DNA of 64,000 nt, taken from a virus. Below the pieces are notes generated by a model, which saw nothing but the letters and a program-made list of their open reading frames with translations, did no database searches and had not been told where the DNA came from. The stretch lies in the IMG/VR virus record IMGVR_UViG_3300032805_000001, positions 56,104 through 120,103 of that record. One strand, written 5' to 3'. The position numbers were made by a program, and so were the translations under genes. Positions 6,616 to 57,748 of the stretch are shown piece after piece. Positions within the stretch are counted from its first letter, which is position 1. Each line of letters begins with the position of its first letter.

Positions 6616-7680
6616 ATGGGGGACATGACCATAACCCCGATCGAGCGGATCATCCTCCCGCCCGGCGACGGCCGGCCCGACTGGCTCCCCGTCGCCGTCA
6701 GCGGCACACCCGCCCCGCCACCCGGCATCGACCCGCACGCCGCCTACATCGCCCGGCTCAAGAGCCCGCAATCCAAGCGCGTCATGAACGGCTGCCTGAA
6801 CAACCTCGCCCGCATGATCGCCAGCGACGCCCTCGGCGCCGAACCCGAACTTGACGACAACCCCGGCAAGGCCTTCCCGTGGTGGCTGCTCCGCTACCAG
6901 CACACCTCCCGCCTCACAGCCCTCCTCGACAGCCACCAGCCGCCCTACGCAGCGTCCTACATCAACAAGCACCTCGCGGCGCTGCGCGGCATCCTTGAGG
7001 AATGCTGGAAACTTGAGCTGATGAGCGGCGACGACTACACCCGCGCCAGGCGCATCGAGGACGTCAAGTTTCACCGCGAGCCCGCCGGCCGGCTCATCCA
7101 CGACGACGACATGGCCAGGCTGCTCGCCGTCTGCTCGGACGGCATCATCGGAATCCGGGACACCGCGCTGCTCGCCACGCTGTACTGCACCGGTATCCGC
7201 TGCGAAGAAGCCGCCACCGCGCTCATCGAGCACTACGACGGCCGCGAGCGGACCCTGCGTGTCCTCGGCAAGGGAAACAAGGAACGCACTGTCCCCATCC
7301 ACCCGGCCGGGATCCCCCACCTTGAAACGTGGCTCGCCCTGCTCGGCGACCAGCGCGGGCCGCTGTTCCGCACCGTCGACAAGCACAACCGGATCGGCGG
7401 CGCGGTCAGCCCTGGTGCCATCCAGCGGCGGATCAGCCAGCGTTACCAGCAGGCCGGCATACGCAGGCTCACGGCACACGACTTCCGCCGGACGTTCCTC
7501 AGCGAGTTCCTCGATTCTGGTGCCGACGCGATGCAGGCACGAAAGGTCGCCGGGCACGCGAGCGTCGCCACGACCCAGCTTTACGACCTTCGCGAGGACC
7601 GCGGCATCCGCGAAGCCGTGAGCCGGATGAAGATCGCCCTCCCTGCCCCGCCGTCAGTGGATGCCGTCTCTCCTTCCTGA
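6616..7680 (+). CDS. Tyrosine recombinase/integrase
   Basis: 354 residues. The N-terminal SAM-like core-binding domain (about residues 40-150) precedes a catalytic domain with all expected residues: Arg in CTGIRCEEA (about 195), Lys in GKGNKERTVP (about 220), HDFRR (about 286-290), GHAS (about 313) and the nucleophile Tyr in TTQLYDLRED (about 322). It is shorter than typical phage integrases, which often have an arm-binding domain, and resembles XerC/D-like or transposon integrases. An ATG closer to the GGGGGA run (6625) has spacing too short for it. It ends just before a strong hairpin. No tRNA or obvious att core is visible beside it. Confidence 0.9.
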   Translation: MGDMTITPIERIILPPGDGRPDWLPVAVSGTPAPPPGIDPHAAYIARLKSPQSKRVMNGCLNNLARMIASDALGAEPELDDNPGKAFPWWLLRYQHTSRLTALLDSHQPPYAASYINKHLAALRGILEECWKLELMSGDDYTRARRIEDVKFHREPAGRLIHDDDMARLLAVCSDGIIGIRDTALLATLYCTGIRCEEAATALIEHYDGRERTLRVLGKGNKERTVPIHPAGIPHLETWLALLGDQRGPLFRTVDKHNRIGGAVSPGAIQRRISQRYQQAGIRRLTAHDFRRTFLSEFLDSGADAMQARKVAGHASVATTQLYDLREDRGIREAVSRMKIALPAPPSVDAVSPS

Positions 7681-7691
7681 CCTCTCCCCCC

Positions 7692-7723
7692 GAAAGCCCC
7701 CCGGCCTCCTCCGGGGGGCTTTC
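7692..7723 (+). terminator. Strong GC hairpin after the tyrosine recombinase
   Basis: A perfect 13-bp stem (GAAAGCCCCCCGG with its complement, 6-base loop) starts 12 bases after the integrase stop and is followed by CTTATA. It has the position and strength of an intrinsic terminator, though the T-run is weak, which is usual in high-GC actinomycetes. Confidence 0.75.
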
Positions 7724-7741
7724 CTTATACCTGGAGGCAGC

Positions 7742-8707
7742 GTGACCGTTCCCGCCCGTGTCCCCGGTTTGCGTGGCCGTCTCCCGGTCAAGCCGCCGGG
7801 TGAAAGGTTTGCTCTCCGGTTTGTCCACGAGTACGTCGTCGAGCCGCTTCCGGCACCGTCGTACCCGGTCGACGTGACCGGCGGGATCGGCGACCAGGAC
7901 TGGTTCATGCTAGGCAATGGCCCTGACCCAACCTGTACTACTCATCCCAACGGGGTGGGTGACTGCGGGTTCGCCGGCCGGCAGCACCTTCGCATGGCGA
8001 AGGCCGCGAACTACGGGCAGATGGAAACGTGGGAGACCAGCGACGAACTCGTCGCTGAGTACCTTGCGTACGACGGCGGCCAGGATGCCGGCGTGAACCT
8101 CGCTGACGTGCTTCTGGCGTGGTACAAGGCGGGGAGGATTTTCGGGTTCGCCCCGGTCGATCACACTGATCCGGCTGCGGTCGATTCGGCTATGGAGGCG
8201 TTCAATGGTGCCTACGCCGGTGTGAATCTGACCGATGATGCCAATGACTTGTTCAGCCAGGGTCAGCCGTGGACTGTCGCTGATGGTGAGCAGCCCGATC
8301 CTGACCAGGGTCATTGCATTGTGAAGGTGAAGGCGGACGGGCGGAGTGTCGACGGGTATGTGACGTGGGGGGCGCTGCAGCCGGCGATGGTGGATTGGAG
8401 TGCGGCTTGCCTGGAGGAAGTGTGGGCGGTGATTACTACTGAGGATGAGGCGGCGAAGGTTGACATGGCTGCGCTGGTGGCTGATATCGAGGCCTTGGGC
8501 GGTACGGTTCCCACGCCTGCGCCGGTTCCTCCCGCCCCATCTCCTCCAGCGCCGCCCGCCCCGCCGGTGCCGCCCGCACCGGTGCCACCCGCACCGCAGC
8601 CCGCGAACCTGCTCGAGGAACTCGCCGCCCGGATCCGCATGGTGGCCGCCTCCGCGCAGCAGGACATCACCGAACTGCTCGCGTTCCTCGCCTCACATGG
8701 CTTGTAA
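7742..8707 (+). CDS. Papain-like-fold (C39/C1-like) protein with proline-rich linker
   Basis: 321 residues; the GTG start is set by GGAGG 5 bases upstream. A possible cysteine-peptidase triad is visible: Cys in GVGDCGFAGRQHL (about residue 75, after a conserved-looking HPNGVGDC), His in DQGHCIVKVKAD (about 190) and a following VTWG. A proline-alanine linker (about 255-290) separates this domain from a helical C-terminus (LLEELAARIRMVAASAQQDI). Similar proteins occur in actinobacterial prophages without a known role. No signal peptide. It may be a defective or regulatory protease; the catalytic assignment is inference. Confidence 0.6.
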   Translation: MTVPARVPGLRGRLPVKPPGERFALRFVHEYVVEPLPAPSYPVDVTGGIGDQDWFMLGNGPDPTCTTHPNGVGDCGFAGRQHLRMAKAANYGQMETWETSDELVAEYLAYDGGQDAGVNLADVLLAWYKAGRIFGFAPVDHTDPAAVDSAMEAFNGAYAGVNLTDDANDLFSQGQPWTVADGEQPDPDQGHCIVKVKADGRSVDGYVTWGALQPAMVDWSAACLEEVWAVITTEDEAAKVDMAALVADIEALGGTVPTPAPVPPAPSPPAPPAPPVPPAPVPPAPQPANLLEELAARIRMVAASAQQDITELLAFLASHGL

Positions 8708-48142: not shown

Positions 48143-49069
48143 ATGGTGAAGCGGCGGCCCGGCGAGAAGTACTGGCAGCACTCGTTCGAGCTCAACGGCG
48201 GCCGTGGCGGCGAAGACGGGCATGAGTGCGCTCGCGGCCGGTGGTGCGCCTCAGCTAAGAACGCCGAACAGCCCGATGGCACCACCGCCCGCGTACCCGG
48301 TTTCACCTACCAGGTGTTCTGCCAGGCATGCACAGACAAAATCGTCGAAGTACTCAAAATCATGCCAGCGTCCTATGCCCGGCTGGAAGAGGAATACGGC
48401 GCCCCCGTCCATCGCAACGACCACGCGGTACGTGTCCCGTTCGGCCCGTCCATCCCGATCCGCCTCGACGTCGACGCGCTGATGCGTGAGACGCCGCTCA
48501 TCATCGGCCAGTGGGCGGCCCGTGTCCGCTCCGTCCCCGGCCTGCAGCTCACCGTCCCGGATTACCCGCCGGACAGCCGTGAAGGGTTCGCGGACGCCTG
48601 CAAAGTGCTCCGCCTGCATCCCGGGCCGCTGTCTTCCCTGCTGCCCGCCTGGATGACCCGCACCTACCGGCTGCCGCTCGACGAGGATACTGAGATCCTG
48701 ATAGCCGACAAGGAAATCGTCCGCGCCGGCGAGGATTACGTGTCCGTCCAGGTGCTATGCGGCGGGGCGACCGCGGGCAACGAGATTCTCGGCCTGGATC
48801 ACCGGTTCGCTGCCGTGCTCGGGGAACTGCGCAGCAAGCCGCAAGAGTTCATGGGTGTCCCGTGCCGGGCTGACGGGTGCGGGTGGATGTCTCTCGTCCG
48901 CGCCGAGCCCCCTTCGGATCCGGATGACCCGGGCTATCACTCGATCTGCCTGAAATGCCGGAACAGGATGACGGAGAGTGAGTACAAGGAGTGGGTGGCG
49001 CTGTGCGCGGCGTATGAGCGGAACCGGCGCACCGTGCCGACCTTGGAAAACACGCCCGGCGTGGCGTGA
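48143..49069 (+). CDS. Actinobacterial mobile-element protein with zinc-binding ends
   Basis: 308 residues. KYWQHSFELNGGRGGEDGHECARGRWCASAKNAEQPDG, then TYQVFCQACTDKIVEVLKIMPASYARLEEEYGAP, RVPFGPSIPIRLDVDALMRETPLIIGQWAARVR and a C-terminal CGW/CLKCRNRMTESEYKEW: the family recurs next to actinophage and AICE genes (pattern 'CRP.EWCE...TY..FC..C...I...L..LP..Y..L'). The Cys pairs suggest two zinc sites. Role unknown. Confidence 0.7.
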   Translation: MVKRRPGEKYWQHSFELNGGRGGEDGHECARGRWCASAKNAEQPDGTTARVPGFTYQVFCQACTDKIVEVLKIMPASYARLEEEYGAPVHRNDHAVRVPFGPSIPIRLDVDALMRETPLIIGQWAARVRSVPGLQLTVPDYPPDSREGFADACKVLRLHPGPLSSLLPAWMTRTYRLPLDEDTEILIADKEIVRAGEDYVSVQVLCGGATAGNEILGLDHRFAAVLGELRSKPQEFMGVPCRADGCGWMSLVRAEPPSDPDDPGYHSICLKCRNRMTESEYKEWVALCAAYERNRRTVPTLENTPGVA

Positions 49070-49078
49070 TCACGCATG

Positions 49079-49172
49079 TTGATGTCACACCTGTAATTCA
49101 TGTATTGTCCAAACACAGGAGTAGTGGGCCCCGGATCAGGTGAAGCGCCGCCCGGGGCTTTCGTTTTGCCCC
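49079..49172 (+). promoter_or_regulatory. Probable promoter and GC hairpin ahead of 49186
   Basis: TTGATG (about 49079) and TATTGT (about 49103) with an 18-bp spacer give a sigma-70-like promoter. Downstream, GCCCCGG and CCGGGGC repeats around 49130-49172 can fold before the TTG start, leaving the GGGGGAGG RBS near it. Confidence 0.4.
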
Positions 49173-52560: not shown

Positions 52561-53070
52561 CTATGACCATCCGGTGACCGTCACTCCCACAAGCCGGTCC
52601 AGAATCCCCGCACTGCCCACAACCGCCGGCGCCCCCCACGTGAGCGCCTGTGACTGTCCCGGCTGCACCGTAATTGACGCCGGCTCACTCACTTCGGTAA
52701 TCACAGATCCCGCCCGGTCATTGACGAACCGGACCGTCACCGAATGAAGAGTGACCGCAGCGCCACCCTCATTGCTCACGTCGACCGTGACCACCGGCGT
52801 GCCGTAGCTTGAGTACGCCCCGTCCGTGAACGACACCACAGCCGGGCCCGCAGGCGTCGCCCCCGCCGCCGCGTGATGCACCGCGAGAACCGCGGCCAGG
52901 GCGAGGACGGGCAGCAGCGCCACCCGTCCCCACCGCTTCGCCGGCCCGTTGCCGATGATGGCGAACAAGAAAACGAACCCCGCCGCCAATGCCAGCCAGA
53001 ACGGCACCCCCAGCATCACGGCACCGCCCACGGGGACTCCCAGGGCAATGCAGACCGCCCAAGTTCTCAT
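52561..53070 (-). CDS. Membrane-anchored beta-domain protein
   Basis: 169 residues. TM segments at about 8-25, 28-45 and 55-70 (LLPVLALAAVLAVHHAAAG), then a beta domain exposed outside (AVVSFTDGAYSSYGTPVVTVDVSNEGGAAVTLHSVTVRFVNDRAGSVITEVSEPASITVQPGQSQALTWGAPAVVGSAGILD), typical of DUF4190-neighbour or FxLYD-like domains. ATG overlaps the stop of the zinc-ribbon HNH gene, so the two may be co-expressed. Confidence 0.6.
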   Translation of the reverse strand: MRTWAVCIALGVPVGGAVMLGVPFWLALAAGFVFLFAIIGNGPAKRWGRVALLPVLALAAVLAVHHAAAGATPAGPAVVSFTDGAYSSYGTPVVTVDVSNEGGAAVTLHSVTVRFVNDRAGSVITEVSEPASITVQPGQSQALTWGAPAVVGSAGILDRLVGVTVTGWS

Positions 53071-54260
53071 AACGCAACCCCCTCTTCATCGGCTGGCGCA
53101 GAAGCCAGCAGTCGTAGGTACTCGTGCTCAACTTTCCGCGAGTGTGCCACTCCGTAGGCGACCCTCCCGGGCCGCCATGAAGTCAGCAAAGAATCGTTCT
53201 TACTGCAGTTACAGGAGACGCAGGCCGGTACAAGGTTGAACTCAGCCTCAGCGCCGCCGCGCGTCAGCGGGCGAACGTGGTCGATCGTTGCGGCTTCCGC
53301 CCCGCAGTACACGCACGGCCCGGACGTGCGGATTGCCGCATACACCTCGGGCGGCACCGGTCCGGCCACCTCTGCGGCCTCTTTGCGGGCACGCCGACTG
53401 TTGCCGTACGAGCGGGCCCGCGCTTCCCACTCGCCGGGTGGTAGTGCGGAACGCCAGCATGCTTGGCAGTAGCGGGCGAGTCCGCGGAATCTGCGTCCAC
53501 AGCCTGCACAGTCGCGCTCTATGGCCTCGCAGGCGTGGCAGCGGCGGCTAGTTCCTTTGAAGACTTGCCCGCAGAACATGCACTCACGCTCGGTCGCCTG
53601 GCAGGCGTGGCAGCGGCGAGTGTGGTTCTTGAAGGGTTTTCCGCACTCAACGCAGGTTCGTTCAATCTTCCGGCAGGCGGGACACGGTTCCTGGTGCCCG
53701 CTGTACCGCTTGCCGCACTGAGGGCAATCACGCTCAACAGTCCGGCAGACGTGACAGCGCCGGTTCGTTCCCCTGAACTGGGCGCCGCACTCGATGCATG
53801 CACGCTCGCGCTGTAGGCAGGCAGAGCAGGTGTTCTGGTTTCCCTGGAAGCTCTGCCCGCATTCCTGGCAGGTTCTAGGAGTTGCCCGGCAGAGGTAGCA
53901 AATGCTGACGTCGCCCCGGAATTGCCTGCCGCACTGGTCGCATGCTCGCATTCCGTACGCTGGCCGACATGACCGGCAGCGAGTAAGGCGGCCCTTGATC
54001 GGCCGGCCACACTCGGCGCACTGCCGTTCGGGGACAGGCTTGCATGTCTTGCAGAGCCGTTCGTCCCCCTTGTATGCCGCCCCGCACTGAGTGCAGGTGC
54101 GCTCCGCCTGACGGCACATCTTGCAGCTGCGTCCGTTGCCCTTGAATGTGCGCCCGCACTTGATGCAGGAGCGCTCGGTCGCGGAGCAGGCACCACATCG
54201 CCGCTTGTCCCCCTTGAAGGTCTTCCCGCACTGTGCACACTCGCGCTGGCCGTAAGACAT
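53067..54260 (-). CDS. HNH nuclease with eleven tandem zinc ribbons
   Basis: 397 residues from ATG 54260. Residues 5-270 are eleven repeats of about 24 residues, each C-x-x-C-G-x-x-F/Y-x-G, then C-x-x-C (e.g. CAQCGKTFKGDKRRCGAC, CIKCGRTFKGNGRSCKMC, CVECGKPFKNHTRRCHAC). A Trp-containing linker leads to a C-terminal HNH: CVYCGAEAATIDHVRPLTRGGAEAEFNLVPACVSCN with D-H and N, plus two Cys pairs. The ribbons probably read DNA or RNA while the HNH cuts. Its start codon lies in a perfect palindrome shared with the divergent RHH gene. An eleven-ribbon/HNH combination is not one I recognise. Confidence 0.9.
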   Translation of the reverse strand: MSYGQRECAQCGKTFKGDKRRCGACSATERSCIKCGRTFKGNGRSCKMCRQAERTCTQCGAAYKGDERLCKTCKPVPERQCAECGRPIKGRLTRCRSCRPAYGMRACDQCGRQFRGDVSICYLCRATPRTCQECGQSFQGNQNTCSACLQRERACIECGAQFRGTNRRCHVCRTVERDCPQCGKRYSGHQEPCPACRKIERTCVECGKPFKNHTRRCHACQATERECMFCGQVFKGTSRRCHACEAIERDCAGCGRRFRGLARYCQACWRSALPPGEWEARARSYGNSRRARKEAAEVAGPVPPEVYAAIRTSGPCVYCGAEAATIDHVRPLTRGGAEAEFNLVPACVSCNCSKNDSLLTSWRPGRVAYGVAHSRKVEHEYLRLLASAPADEEGVAL

Positions 54261-54306
54261 GGGACCAGTGTAGTCCCATACCGGTCCATGTCTCATACTG
54301 GTCCCA
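54259..54306. promoter_or_regulatory. Shared palindromic operator of the zinc-ribbon HNH and RHH genes
   Basis: ATGGGACCAGT (54259-54269) is repeated inverted and exactly as ACTGGTCCCAT, ending at about 54306. Both divergent start codons lie in the arms (CAT at 54258-54260, ATG at 54306). Between them GTCCCATACCGG and CGGTCCATG add two more half-sites. With such short distances both messages may be leaderless. The RHH protein at 54306 is the natural ligand. Confidence 0.7.
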
Positions 54307-54482
54307 TGAAGCATGTGAATCTGCGCCTGGATGACGAACTGCACGCCCGCCTCAGGGCAGCGGCGGAAGCCGACCGGCGCTCCCTCAACACGATGATTGC
54401 GGTACTCATCGAAGAGGGATTGCAGCGGCGCACCGCGCCGGCTCCCGCAACTCCCGGACCTCACTCCTCCTCGCCCGTATAG
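54306..54482 (+). CDS. Arc-type ribbon-helix-helix repressor
   Basis: 58 residues from ATG 54306, the second base pair of the palindrome arm. KHVNLRLDDELHARLRAAAEADRRSLNTMIAVLIEEGLQRR is the Arc/MetJ RHH motif with the expected leading beta strand (VNLRLDD). A tail of 15 residues is disordered. A Mnt/Arc-like autorepressor of the two divergent genes is the natural reading; it could also be the antitoxin of a TA-like pair with the HNH protein. Confidence 0.9.
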   Translation: MKHVNLRLDDELHARLRAAAEADRRSLNTMIAVLIEEGLQRRTAPAPATPGPHSSSPV

Positions 54483-56158
54483 TCCAGCTCAGTGTTTTCA
54501 AGCGCGCCGCCGAGGTCCGCCGCGAACGACGCGAACTCTTCGGCCGCCGACTTGCCTTCGTCCTCAACTGGCGCAGTCGCCTGGTCAAGCGCGAGCTCCA
54601 CGACCGCGGCCCGGACACGCTCCGGCCATTCCCCGCCCGCAGCATCAGCAACGGCCACCAAGGGCGTGCTGATCTCCTCGGCCCGGCCATCCAGTTCTTC
54701 CGGCATGTCCGGCTGATAGTCCGCGAGCTCATCCCGCACCTGCGACGCCCACGCCTGCAGCCACTCATTCAGCTTGGCCGCCTGCCCCTCAGCGACGCGC
54801 GAGACCTTGGCAGGGCGATCATTCTTGCCCGCACGCTTCATGCGAATCTTGAAGCCACGCGAGAGCAAAGCGTCCATGCTGTTGCCCGTCGCCTTCTCTA
54901 TCGCGTCGAGCCCGGCAAGAGCCACGGCGCCGAACACGTTGACGCGGGTGGCCTTGTTGCCCTTGCCGTTCACTGTCGTACCGTGCCGCGCATAGCCTCC
55001 ATTAAGTACGGCCCGGACGCCCGAGGCGCGCTGAGCACTGGAGAAGAGCAGATCCCCTTCGTCGAGCAGAACCGTTGCATGCTCTTTGCTCAGCGTGTGA
55101 ATAAGCCCGGCCTTCGTCGGCTCAAGATCCAAGCCGAACGTGTCCGGGCACAGCATGTTGAGCAGCTCCAGGCACTTTGACTTCCCGGATCCGGGCTCGC
55201 TTGACAGGAAGTACAGCCGTGGCGTCGCGCGGAACACCAGCGTCCCGTTCTCATCTTTCATGTGGCTGTGCGCGACCCAAGCGACCATCACGTCAAGCGC
55301 TGCGGGTGACGGAAGGCGCACATACGTCCCGATCCACTGCCGCAGCAGATCCAGGAGCTGATCACCCGGTATCCGGTCCGCTCGTGGCCGGACCGGCGCA
55401 GCCGTCGGCCGGGGAACGACAGCGCCGGTCATCCCAGCCGCGGCGCGAGCCGCCGCGAGCCGCCGCTCCGCTGCTTCCCTGCCCGCTTCCATGTGCCGTG
55501 CCGTGTCCGCGGCGACACGCGCGGCCGTGGCAGCGTCGGTGGCGTCGCTCACTCCTGCCTCCCCTCGCCGTCCGTGATCAGCGACAGCAGATCCGCCGGC
55601 CCGGGCGGCGCCGTCTGCGCCCGCTTCCGCCCCGCCCGCGTCCCCGGCGCCTCGAACAGCACCAGGTCCGCGCTCGTGTCGAAGTCCCCGCGCTGCATCG
55701 CCGTCCAATCCGTCCCGCCCGTAGGTGTCCACGGAACCGTCATCGCCTGCCTCCTCAGTCATGTCTTCCCGTGCGAGCCGGTTACCGGCCTGCATCTGGC
55801 GGATGTACTCACCGATCGTCACCCGCGGCGACACACGCCAAAAGTCGTTAAGCTCCTCACTCGCGTACTTCGCGGCGACGTCCGCCCGGCCCGCCCAAAG
55901 CTGGAACGGGTTAGTGATCCCAGCCGCCTCACCGTCACGGGACAGCAGATTCCCGCAGCACTGCGCCTCCGCCGCGAGGAACTGCTCGTGCGCCGCGTCA
56001 TACCACTCCGCGCGGACCTGGGCGCGTTCCCGTGCCGCTCTGTCGGCCTGGTCGCGTCGTCTTGCTTCGGCGAGAACGGAAGCGTCCGCATCGGCCGCCC
56101 ACCTCTCCCGCAACTGTTCGTCGGACATGCCACGCACGTCCTCTACCGTGACCGACAC
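54461..56158 (-). CDS. AAA/DUF3631-like ATPase with fused N-terminal phage domain
   Basis: 565 residues from GTG (SD GAGGAGG 4 bases upstream). Residues 1-130 (SVTVEDVRGMSDEQLRERWAADADASVLAEARRRDQADRAARERAQVRAEWYDAAHEQFLAAEAQCCGNLLSRDG...ADVAAKYASEELNDFWRVSPRVTIGEYIRQMQAGNRLAREDM) are a known actinophage/AICE small-protein type; 265-end hold the ATPase with Walker A SSEPGSGKSKC (about 330) and Walker B TVLLDEGDLLF (about 370), then TKAGLIHTLSKEH. The middle 135-215 is low-complexity Gly/Asp/Arg and overlaps an alternative reading frame (55549-55743). Probably two ancestral genes joined. Confidence 0.75.
   Translation of the reverse strand: MSVTVEDVRGMSDEQLRERWAADADASVLAEARRRDQADRAARERAQVRAEWYDAAHEQFLAAEAQCCGNLLSRDGEAAGITNPFQLWAGRADVAAKYASEELNDFWRVSPRVTIGEYIRQMQAGNRLAREDMTEEAGDDGSVDTYGRDGLDGDAARGLRHERGPGAVRGAGDAGGAEAGADGAARAGGSAVADHGRRGEAGVSDATDAATAARVAADTARHMEAGREAAERRLAAARAAAGMTGAVVPRPTAAPVRPRADRIPGDQLLDLLRQWIGTYVRLPSPAALDVMVAWVAHSHMKDENGTLVFRATPRLYFLSSEPGSGKSKCLELLNMLCPDTFGLDLEPTKAGLIHTLSKEHATVLLDEGDLLFSSAQRASGVRAVLNGGYARHGTTVNGKGNKATRVNVFGAVALAGLDAIEKATGNSMDALLSRGFKIRMKRAGKNDRPAKVSRVAEGQAAKLNEWLQAWASQVRDELADYQPDMPEELDGRAEEISTPLVAVADAAGGEWPERVRAAVVELALDQATAPVEDEGKSAAEEFASFAADLGGALENTELDYTGEEE
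55549..55743 (-). CDS. Small protein in an alternative frame inside the ATPase gene
   Basis: 64 residues: MTVPWTPTGGTDWTAMQRGDFDTSADLVLFEAPGTRAGRKRAQTAPPGPADLLSLITDGEGRQE. Its sequence (DWTAMQRGDFDTSADLVLFEAPGTR) is more protein-like than the ATPase frame it overlaps, and it matches a short telomere/primase-neighbour protein type known from Streptomyces mobile DNA. If both are real, translation must switch frames or initiate internally here. Confidence 0.5.
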   Translation of the reverse strand: MTVPWTPTGGTDWTAMQRGDFDTSADLVLFEAPGTRAGRKRAQTAPPGPADLLSLITDGEGRQE

Positions 56159-56186
56159 GATGCCTCCTCATCGTTGGGTCTTGCAT

Positions 56187-56234
56187 GCCCTCCTCCCGTC
56201 ACGAACGGGCGCCGGCCTCATGCCGGGGGAGGGC
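56187..56234 (-). ncRNA. Structured leader RNA, copy 2 (upstream of the ATPase gene)
   Basis: Read on the minus strand, GCCCTCC...GGAGGGC forms an outer 7-bp stem enclosing two hairpins: CCGGC-ATGAG-GCCGG (56212-56226) and CCCGT-TCGTG-ACGGG (56195-56209). It begins 7 bases after the stop of the 56242 gene and ends about 28 bases before the GTG, leaving the SD (56163-56169) free. The 5' strand CCCUCC can alternatively base-pair with the SD GGAGG. Copy 1 (56747-56796) keeps every stem while changing one hairpin's sequence completely. Confidence 0.65.
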
Positions 56235-56241
56235 TGGCGGG

Positions 56242-56712
56242 TTACTGCCGCGCGGCGATGTACTTGTCGAGCGCTTCCAGTACGCCGTTAGCCGACTGGA
56301 CCGCTTCCCTCAAAATGTCCATGCCCGCCGCGATGCCCGTAGTGTCCGGCGTGCCAACGTGGCGCATCTCTATGCAGGGAGAGGCGAGCTTGAGGTGCGG
56401 GCCGGCGTACACGAAAAACTGATAGTGACCGCCGTCGGGGTCGGCCGCGTACTCGAAGTACAGTTCGGTTTGGTCAGGCTGGACGACGATCCCCTCTTCG
56501 CACGCGATGCGGACCACGGCGTCGACGTTGCACTCCTCGTCAAAGTCCCGCGGACTCCAGTCGGCGCCGATCTCGGGTAGCTTCTCCCCGGTGTCCGGGT
56601 TGCGCGTGCCGCCCCGCATGCCGTCCGGATACGCCTCTACCGCGGCCCGCAGCCATGCGCGGGCGCGCGTCTCATCGAGCGTGAACCGTGCCCTAGCCGC
56701 CTGAACCGTCAT
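56242..56712 (-). CDS. Acidic phage protein, function unknown
   Basis: 156 residues from ATG 56712 with SD GAGGAGG 5 bases upstream. FTLDETRARAWLRAAVEAYPDGMRGGTRNPDTGEKLPEIGADWSPRDFDEECNVDAVVRIACEEGIVVQPDQTELYFEYAADPDGGHYQFFVYAGPHLKLASPCIEMRHVGTPDTTGIAAGMDILREAV. Mixed alpha/beta; I cannot name the family. It is preceded by leader RNA copy 1 and followed by copy 2. Confidence 0.65.
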   Translation of the reverse strand: MTVQAARARFTLDETRARAWLRAAVEAYPDGMRGGTRNPDTGEKLPEIGADWSPRDFDEECNVDAVVRIACEEGIVVQPDQTELYFEYAADPDGGHYQFFVYAGPHLKLASPCIEMRHVGTPDTTGIAAGMDILREAVQSANGVLEALDKYIAARQ

Positions 56713-56746
56713 CTCTGCCTCCTCAGTGATGGGTTTGCTTTTGCGT

Positions 56747-56796
56747 GCCCTCCGCGCGTCTCGCTCGCGCCGCCGGCCTTATGCCGGCGGGAGGGC
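56747..56796 (-). ncRNA. Structured leader RNA, copy 1
   Basis: Same architecture as copy 2: outer stem GCCCTCC (56747-56753 complement) with GGAGGGC (56790-56796), hairpin GCCGGC-CTTAT-GCCGGC (56772-56788) and hairpin GCGCG-TCTCGCT-CGCGC (56754-56770, sequence entirely different from copy 2 yet still paired). It starts 8 bases after the 56805 gene's stop and ends about 22 bases from the downstream SD (56718-56724). Conserved GCAARA and CCCAnC follow in both copies. Confidence 0.7.
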
Positions 56797-56804
56797 AGGT
56801 CTTG

Positions 56805-57104
56805 CTAGAGCGATTCGGTTTCCCAGAGATAGGCGTCGTACAGGTCGCCGAGGAACACGCGCAGTTCATCGCGGCCCTTTTCGACGCGCCGGTAAAGCGC
56901 CTCCGCCTTGCGCGAGTCGTCGTCTGCGCCGTACTCGTCGCACCACTCCTCAAAGCTTCCCGTGTTCTCAAGTCCGGCCGCGTCGGACACAAAACTGTTC
57001 AGTACCTCATCGGCCCTCGGCTCATAGGTGAGCGCCTCACCCATGCCGAACATCGTTTTAAGTGAGTAGGGCAACGTGTTCTGGCTCCAGGAGAGCAACT
57101 TCAT
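56805..57104 (-). CDS. Acidic phage protein whose start lies in the IS21-like end
   Basis: 99 residues; a start at MFGMGEALTYEPRADE (57053) avoids the repeat, while the longer start MKLLSWSQNTLPYSL (57104) is encoded entirely inside the 250-bp IS-like repeat. EPRADEVLNSFVSDAAGLENTGSFEEWCDEYGADDDSRKAEALYRRVEKGRDELRVFLGDLYDAYLWETE is a domain I have met repeatedly in short actinophage proteins. The upstream flank is probably displaced by the IS-like arm. Confidence 0.6.
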   Translation of the reverse strand: MKLLSWSQNTLPYSLKTMFGMGEALTYEPRADEVLNSFVSDAAGLENTGSFEEWCDEYGADDDSRKAEALYRRVEKGRDELRVFLGDLYDAYLWETESL

Positions 57105-57310
57105 CTGGCTCCACTTGTCTCCACGGGTGCTGTCGTAGCAGCTAGATCTGGCCCCACTTCACTGGCCCGGATCACGACCCGGATCGCAAGCCATTTTGGC
57201 TCCACTCCAGCCCTGCTGCGGTCACCTGACTAGGCCCTAGCATGGGTTTCAGGAATCGGGCCGGTCGATCCTCTCCCTGACAGAGCTGGGTCAGCCCGGC
57301 CCGGTTCCCC
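57061..57310. repeat. 250-bp inverted repeat, copy B (IS21-like right end)
   Basis: Inverted copy of 11948-12197 (see that entry for motif and identity). Here the IS body would lie to the right (57311 upward) and the tip at about 57061, matching an element whose right end sits downstream of istB (59333). The 2-kb gap between the repeat and istB is filled by passenger genes. Confidence 0.85.
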
Positions 57311-57452
57311 ATTCTCCGGGCGGCAGGGTCCGCAGCGGGCGCGGGTCGAAATACATGCCGTGCGCTTCGGCCATATGCTCAGCCGTCTCGACCTCATCGA
57401 ACAGGTGCGCGTACTCGTGGCCGCACAGCGAGCACACAGCTACGATCTTCAT
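57291..57452 (-). CDS. C2H2-like zinc protein
   Basis: 53 residues from ATG 57452 (IVAVCSLCGHEYAHLFDEVETAEHMAEAHGMYFDP...). CSLC...H...AH gives a plausible C2H2 zinc site. The last few codons enter the 250-bp repeat. Same position in this arm as the short basic peptide at 11391 in the other arm; no sequence similarity seen. Confidence 0.55.
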   Translation of the reverse strand: MKIVAVCSLCGHEYAHLFDEVETAEHMAEAHGMYFDPRPLRTLPPGEWGTGPG

Positions 57453-57460
57453 GTTTAGCC

Positions 57461-57748
57461 TTACCGTTCTCTCGGCAGGAACACGGACCACGCGCCGCCC
57501 TCATGGCGGCCCTGCTCGAATGTGCAGCCGAACCGCTCAGCCCAGACGGCGACATCGCCGACTGCGAACGACAGGACTATGCAGCCGGCCGGGTCAATGT
57601 CCTCGGCCGTGCGCAGGATCAAGCCGATGCCGGTCTCGACGCTCTGACCGCAACGGCGGAACAGCGCCTCCACGCCCTCGCTTATCAGGGTGACCGGGAC
57701 GCCGCGGAACTGGAGTCCCGCGCTTCTGATGTCGATCACTGAAGCCAC
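57461..57748 (-). CDS. IS-arm passenger protein with IDIRS motif, copy 2
   Basis: 95 residues, the inverted paralog of 11110 (IDIRSAGLQFRGVPVTLISEGVEALFRRCGQSVETGIGLILRTAEDIDPAGCIVLSFAVGDVAVWAERFGCTFEQGRHEGGAWSVFLPRER; compare SEGVEALFRRCG and WSVFLP in both). Only the inner variable segment differs. DUF6221 precedes it and the 250-bp repeat follows, exactly as in the left arm. Function unknown. Confidence 0.75.
   Translation of the reverse strand: MASVIDIRSAGLQFRGVPVTLISEGVEALFRRCGQSVETGIGLILRTAEDIDPAGCIVLSFAVGDVAVWAERFGCTFEQGRHEGGAWSVFLPRER

Follow-up and report, generated by a model that had tools for sequence, protein, structure and literature searches.

On the minus strand of the DNA analysed here, a 64-kb stretch (the window) within a 120,103-base IMG/VR record, two intergenic segments are each built of a perfect outer stem and two inner hairpins, and the question raised by this locus is what these twin segments are and what they could do for the genes around them. 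Both segments, with this architecture, had been pointed out by an original prediction, and this part of it stood. The features are listed below in the order in which they are met along the minus strand; the assignment of the two copies relied on sequence, folding and a covariance model (R3) described further on.

56805-57104, minus strand: small gene upstream of copy 2, 99 aa, matching phrog_4273 (unknown function); its TAG stop codon lies 8 nt before copy 2
56747-56796, minus strand: copy 2, tRNA-like element of 50 nt
56790-56796 with 56747-56753, minus strand: acceptor-like stem of copy 2, 7/7 bp
56771-56789, minus strand: middle hairpin of copy 2, CGCCGGC-ATAAG-GCCGGCG
56754-56770, minus strand: T-arm-like hairpin of copy 2, GCGCG-AGCGAGA-CGCGC, 5/5 bp
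56712-56724, minus strand: Shine-Dalgarno GAGGAGG (56718-56724), then CAGAG and an ATG start with its first base at 56712
56242-56712, minus strand: small gene between the copies, 156 aa, no family match; its TAA stop codon lies 7 nt before copy 1
56187-56234, minus strand: copy 1, tRNA-like element of 48 nt
56228-56234 with 56187-56193, minus strand: acceptor-like stem of copy 1, 7/7 bp
56212-56226, minus strand: middle hairpin of copy 1, CCGGC-ATGAG-GCCGG
56194-56210, minus strand: T-arm-like hairpin of copy 1, GCCCG-TTCGTGA-CGGGA, 4/5 bp
56158-56169, minus strand: Shine-Dalgarno GAGGAGG (56163-56169), then CATC and a GTG start with its first base at 56158
54461-56158, minus strand: open frame after copy 1, 565 codons

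On this strand, the 99-aa gene is followed by 8 nt, copy 2, 34 nt, the 156-aa gene, 7 nt, copy 1, 28 nt and the frame at 56158. The distances of 7 and 8 nt from the stop codons to the elements were as predicted; those on the other side, given as 22-28 bases to GAGGAGG and start, had to be corrected to 17 nt (copy 1) and 22 nt (copy 2) for GAGGAGG and to 28 and 34 nt for the start codons. The last gene had been described as an ATPase at 54461. A DUF3631 ATPase is present in this frame, but its own likely start is a GTG at 55552, and the frame from 56158 to 54461 probably joins a small gene, placed ahead, to the ATPase. The N-terminal part of the frame resembles the C-terminus of phrog_12049; no stop codon separates the two parts, which may instead form a genuine fusion. 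Between them, in another frame, an overlapping ORF (55743-55549) has a Shine-Dalgarno sequence of its own. TGAGGAGGCA occurs three times on the minus strand (55748-55757, 56161-56170 and 56716-56725), each time immediately before a start, and two of these three starts also have ATGACGGTT in common, which makes a repeated start module. The gene at 53067-54464, on the same strand, encodes a protein in which many zinc-ribbon repeats, with a period of 72 nt in the DNA, precede an HNH nuclease domain. When protein relatives of the flanking genes were sought in viral contigs, phages and plasmids, either none or only distant DUF3631 relatives were obtained.

Both copies fold better than their dinucleotide shuffles (z -3.4 and -4.0). 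The outer stem GCCCTCC/GGAGGGC is a perfect 7-bp helix in each; pairs of CCCTCC..GGAGGG with a span like that of the copies occur three times in the window against 0.65 expected, and no third copy was found in the whole 120-kb record. The proposal that both copies form the same three-way junction held for copy 2, for which the junction is the minimum with RNA parameters, but not for copy 1, whose minimum is a single rod (-31.6) with the junction lying 2.7-3.6 kcal/mol above it; with DNA parameters, the junction was obtained for both. One inner hairpin had been reported as completely different in the two copies. This was an effect of misalignment: in register, hairpin 2 reads GCCCGTTCGTGACGGGA versus GCGCGAGCGAGACGCGC, the majority of letters being common to both copies, with one pair changed on both sides (C-G to G-C), one gained and one lost. 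A single compensatory change between paralogues is insufficient for the covariation that had been read directly from the twins; real covariation came from a wider family. The 3' flanks of the copies are also alike as far as the Shine-Dalgarno sequence, and the copies are therefore paralogous leader units.

The outer stem, with its 7 bp, resembles the acceptor stem of a tRNA, and the 3' inner hairpin (5 bp and a 7-nt loop, stacked on the outer stem) resembles a T-arm. In copy 1, this T-stem holds one G-A mismatch, and an A at position 73, directly after the acceptor-like stem, is followed by a T at position 74; in copy 2 the stem is followed by A and C. An ordinary tRNA gene was ruled out, since no cloverleaf with an anticodon arm was detected by ARAGORN or Rfam RF00005: ARAGORN reported no tRNA gene in the window and Rfam gave no tRNA match for the copies up to an E value of 10. 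Intrinsic terminators, defined as a GC stem plus a T-run, numbered zero at 55500-57600, and the missing T-run ruled out this identity for the copies.

A covariance model made from the two window copies alone (R1) was run on the window and on 83 loci, mostly with relatives of the DUF3631 ATPase. Its best non-self matches were tRNA-Glu genes, through their acceptor stem and T-arm (loci L033 and L046, with ARAGORN confirming both), and a short element in an integrated element of Streptomyces scopuliridis (L022). The latter lacks D and anticodon arms; it has a perfect 7-bp GCCCCGG/CCGGGGC stem and a T-arm of 5 bp closed by the loop TTCGACT, and sits 10 nt past a stop codon and 38 nt ahead of a GTG start. 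In another Streptomyces (L102), a homologue of the gene downstream also carries this element, there with one compensated pair in the T-arm; it is the sole further homologue having one, the element being missing at the remaining homologues listed. A second model (R2), built from the window copies and these two elements, was run on 394 Streptomyces genomes and gave matches of 50-56 nt, the highest at 61 bits, more than full tRNA genes score. In addition, a specific DNA pattern led to 35 IMG/VR contigs, one of which has three copies about 300 nt apart, and blastn led to 15 Streptomyces plasmids with the element. These searches yielded the further copies that the original prediction had anticipated, and 94 distinct elements of about 50 nt, from Streptomyces genomes, Streptomyces plasmids and the 35 IMG/VR contigs, were compared; as the many-genome searches scored few candidates per genome under strict filters, these counts are lower bounds.

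Other searches delimited the family. R1 gave one match in 395 Actinomycetes (G300, locus L099, E 0.002), intergenic-looking and lacking the later family pattern. Exact DNA patterns of the two window copies gave, in viral contigs, no match or one chance match within a coding gene (L006), and the phage records searched for the element gave none. The element remained unmatched in Rfam 15 at the gathering score, both in the window and in 16 element-bearing loci. No published description of the family was found in open-licence papers, including those on tRNA-like elements in Streptomyces, on AICEs, on RNase P in operons and on DUF6284/DUF6251; the statement that no described element has this layout stood within these limits.

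The ~50-nt tRNA look-alikes form an RNA family whose members, in Streptomyces plasmids and integrated elements, separate one small gene from the next. In 52 Streptomyces copies, from which the window was excluded, 98.2% of the pair cells are paired, against 23-60% in slid controls, and the acceptor-like 7-bp stem is 100% paired. Covariation beyond the two window copies was clear in this set: 49 compensatory cells were counted versus 13.2 ± 2.6 in shuffles, nine pairs were changed on both sides, and 0 of 500 shuffles reached any of the measures. The IMG/VR set alone gave the same picture (99.2% paired; 44 compensatory cells versus 12). For five members, the three-way junction of acceptor stem, small hairpin and T-arm is the thermodynamic minimum without use of any model. 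A fully compensated acceptor variant, GCTCTGG/CCAGAGC, exists, and one member (L209) has the T-stem GCGCG/CGCGC, identical to that of window copy 2. This bears out the original prediction insofar as the window segments are structured RNAs that occupy a constant place in the leader, with genuine covariation and with relatives outside this genome. A reading of the copies as DNA cruciforms is not needed, because the compensatory changes and the transcription-oriented placement indicate RNA.

The acceptor strands are GCCCCGG/CCGGGGC in 77 of 85 distinct elements, an invariance partly due to how members were found, some by sequence and the viral ones with a pattern that demanded GCCCCGG. The T-loop is mostly ATCGAAT or ATCGACT, and its position 54 is A in place of T in most members. 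The D-loop is absent, which leaves nothing for the T-loop to dock, and CCA is not encoded. Base 73 is a purine in 88 of 92 elements and base 74 a C in 89 of 92 (67/75 and 74/75, respectively, in nearby tRNA genes). A near-invariant acceptor combined with a variable T-arm exceeds what generic recognition by RNase P needs and suggests a specific partner.

A third model (R3) was built only from Streptomyces copies, with no window sequence. It matches tRNA genes in many Actinomycetes, the best being an atypical short tRNA-Leu(CAA) with a GCCCCGG/CCGGGGC acceptor. This type-I tRNA-Leu (74-79 nt, at ~1501-1580 of each of the loci L217-L232) is seen across Actinomycetes and lacks the long variable arm that a Leu tRNA would normally have. 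It has in common with the elements the acceptor stem, a similar 5' linker (TATCCCA versus CATCCA) and A73 C74; unlike them, it is a full-length gene with D and anticodon arms, and its T-loop is TTCGAAT where theirs is ATCGAAT. From this sequence likeness, the elements may perhaps have been derived from the atypical tRNA-Leu. A longer relative lies between two small genes at L137:2088-2159 (plus strand), with a GCCCCGC/GCGGGGC acceptor, the loop TTCGAAT and a 35-nt middle; it may represent an intermediate step from tRNA to the short elements. Within the window, a perfect GCCCCGG..CCGGGGC palindrome at 49122-49164, about 60 nt past the gene 48143-49069, scores 20 bits with R3 and has no T-arm; it is probably a terminator-like hairpin.

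The elements usually begin 6-24 nt past a stop codon, and 64% of them, compared with 14% of random positions, have within 20 nt upstream a stop that closes a frame of 40 codons or longer. On the other side, the main group reaches its next start after 27-56 nt; in a second group, often ahead of DUF6284 genes, this distance is about 90-150 nt. The genes that follow the elements are of many unrelated kinds. In the Streptomyces plasmid NZ_CP108706.1, three elements occupy three successive gaps between annotated genes, all within the operon leading to traA and traB (coordinates of locus L245):

7583-7753: gene
7762: element
7840-7992: gene
8001: element
8093-8281: gene
8294: element

Tandem copies alternating with small genes were also found in L163, L170, L174 and L187, and this is the arrangement of the window twins. 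Several observations were made on the surroundings of the elements. In L138, L155, L158, L159 and L182, the element directly follows a conserved GAAGGAGACATGCAC-like Shine-Dalgarno sequence with ATG, and therefore a short leader peptide would read into the element. In L136, L140, L142, L147 and L157 and in L138, L139, L155, L158 and L159, conserved non-coding stretches of ~100-130 nt separate the element from the gene that follows, often DUF6284; these are possibly a second structured RNA. In a Streptomyces genome, a gntR-DTE RNA (RF02989) lies upstream of two tandem tRNA-like elements (L174:253-406).

From the covarying structure, the stop-to-start position, the alternation with small genes and the tRNA-like features, we infer a role for the elements as tRNA-mimic mRNA punctuation, cut by RNase P (and RNase Z) in polycistrons of actinobacterial mobile elements, a reading to which we give an even chance. 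It is proposed because the elements retain the parts that RNase P needs, namely the acceptor/T-arm stack with R73 C74, and because there are known precedents: hairpins of an acceptor stem with T-stem and T-loop suffice as RNase P substrates, and the natural substrates of this enzyme include mRNAs and intergenic RNAs (PMC11143913). The stack with R73 C74 occurs in the family, with A,C in copy 2 and A,T in copy 1. In the proposed mechanism, the element, whose acceptor stem stacks on the T-arm and in which a short hairpin replaces the D and anticodon arms, would be taken for a pre-tRNA by the tRNA-processing enzymes of the host. RNase P would cut directly ahead of the first G of the element and RNase Z after the discriminator base. 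The cuts would separate the cistrons, so that the upstream message would end right behind its own stop codon and the downstream message would keep a short leader with its own Shine-Dalgarno sequence. More speculatively, ribosomes terminating at the nearby stop codon could mask the element and thereby couple processing to translation. Against punctuation count the A at T-loop position 54 of most members, the missing D-loop, the unencoded CCA, the scarcely varying acceptor and, in the window copies, the weak R3 scores and divergent T-loops, together with the G-A mismatch and T74 of copy 1.

The main rival to punctuation is a specific reader of the acceptor stem: the tRNA mimic would bind a particular protein (an aminoacyl-tRNA synthetase, a CCA-adding or modification enzyme, or a regulator encoded by the element) and control the downstream gene uncut, in the style of the thrS leader. 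The near-invariance of the acceptor while the T-arm pairs vary freely speaks for such a reader, as do the occurrence of the same acceptor stem in the atypical tRNA-Leu(CAA) and the fixed distance of the main class from the next start codon. Part of this invariance is search bias, however, and three of the seven acceptor pairs are altered in the window copies; moreover, the elements lack the anticodon arm, where many synthetases chiefly read identity, and the genes downstream vary widely in kind. On balance, we regard control by an uncut mimic as rather unlikely. It is far less probable still that the elements are mobile tRNA-derived repeats (SINE- or MITE-like) or remnants of attachment sites with no function for the genes. 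Their clear resemblance to tRNA, their occurrence in mobile elements, their presence upstream of some copies of one gene and absence from most others, and one match (L171) that looks like a partial tRNA copy and was left out of the family would suit this origin, but the strong compensatory change reveals selection on pairing, the typical site is the gap right after a stop codon in the direction of transcription, and several different copies can occur within one mobile element, each with both acceptor strands.

Two further explanations concern the window copies themselves. These could be unrelated GC-rich intergenic hairpins, stabilising or terminating the mRNA, whose likeness to the family arose by convergence. 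In a search of both strands of the 64 kb with filters off, R3 ranked copy 2 first (24.3 bits, E 0.0097) and copy 1 third (19.2 bits, E 0.10); these scores are weak, R3 rewards any GC-rich junction of the same shape, and with default filters it missed both copies. The copies also lack the usual acceptor bases 5-7, and their T-loops (TTCGTGA and AGCGAGA) depart from the consensus ATCGA(A/C)T, the commonest rather than universal form, of which only C56 and G57 are kept by both. Among 250 genomes of the order of Actinomadura livida, the search for window-like intermediates gave only tRNA, tRNA-like-fragment or chance matches. Against convergence, the model that ranked the copies first and third had seen neither of them, and R1 in turn retrieved the family, with 12 of its top 13 matches in 439 kb of family-bearing loci being members. 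The copies have in common with the family the acceptor length, the directly stacked 5-bp/7-nt T-arm, G53-C61, A73 and the RNRAN loop of the middle hairpin (ATGAG and ATAAG versus GTGAG); their positions relative to stop and start codons fit it, they flank the 156-aa gene as in the tandem loci, and no T-run follows them. Convergence is consequently quite improbable and, given the ranks obtained with the window-free model, the copies are probably members of the family, though divergent ones. As for the switch that had been predicted, in which CCCUCC would alternate between its partner in the stem and the GGAGG that follows downstream, the CCUCC/GGAGG complementarity exists in both window copies but follows from the stem's own GGAGG strand. 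The alternative pairing lies above the best fold by 17 kcal/mol in copy 1 and by 6 kcal/mol in copy 2, and the family strand GCCCCGG, devoid of CCTCC, cannot pair with GGAGG. With an alternative pairing neither comparable in energy nor conserved, sequestration of the Shine-Dalgarno sequence was rejected, and we attach hardly any probability to it.

Returning to mRNA punctuation, a broader statement, which we hold more tentatively, is that actinobacterial plasmids, integrated elements and phage-like elements may carry a dedicated tRNA-mimic punctuation code that would split the mRNAs of transfer and replication operons into single messages. If true, this code would be a bacterial analogue of the tRNA punctuation of mitochondria. 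The data suggest that mobile elements adjust expression inside operons by turning the enzymes of tRNA maturation to their own use. For a well-studied genus and for its conjugative plasmids, they bring an RNA family that covariation supports and that Rfam 15 does not contain, and the near-invariant acceptor, in common with tRNA-Leu(CAA), raises the question of its reader.

Among known systems, mascRNA and menRNA are tRNA-like RNAs at the end of MALAT1 and MEN-beta. Like the elements, they are reduced tRNA-like RNAs serving as RNA-processing signals, a role that is putative for the elements; they differ in forming the 3' end of a eukaryotic nuclear lncRNA, in measuring ~60 nt with remnants of the other arms, and in not lying between coding genes. 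The minimal (armless) mitochondrial tRNAs of mites and nematodes are likewise very short and devoid of tRNA arms, but they are functional tRNAs with an anticodon, whereas the elements, located between genes of bacteria, lack an anticodon arm (PMC2797822). In Cluster K mycobacteriophages, the SAS/ESAS sequences, of unknown function, are repeated upstream of the starts of several small genes, where, as in our case, an inverted repeat precedes a Shine-Dalgarno-like motif; the ESAS, not described as tRNA-like, combines the fixed 13-bp GGGATAGGAGCCC with a pair of 17-bp inverted repeats (PMC3203893). In the window, GGGATAGGAGCCC is absent near the starts and at chance level overall (22 matches at up to 3 mismatches versus 27.6 expected), which ruled out membership of this group. 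A further likeness is with RNase P substrates in or between mRNAs, such as tRNA-like sites, the phage C4 antisense RNA and model acceptor/T-arm hairpins, which also place an acceptor on a T-stem and loop, with purine 73 and C74, in transcripts other than those of tRNA genes (PMC11143913). Compared with these, the elements, for which cleavage is predicted only, are a conserved, covarying and recurrent family set between successive cistrons of actinobacterial mobile elements.
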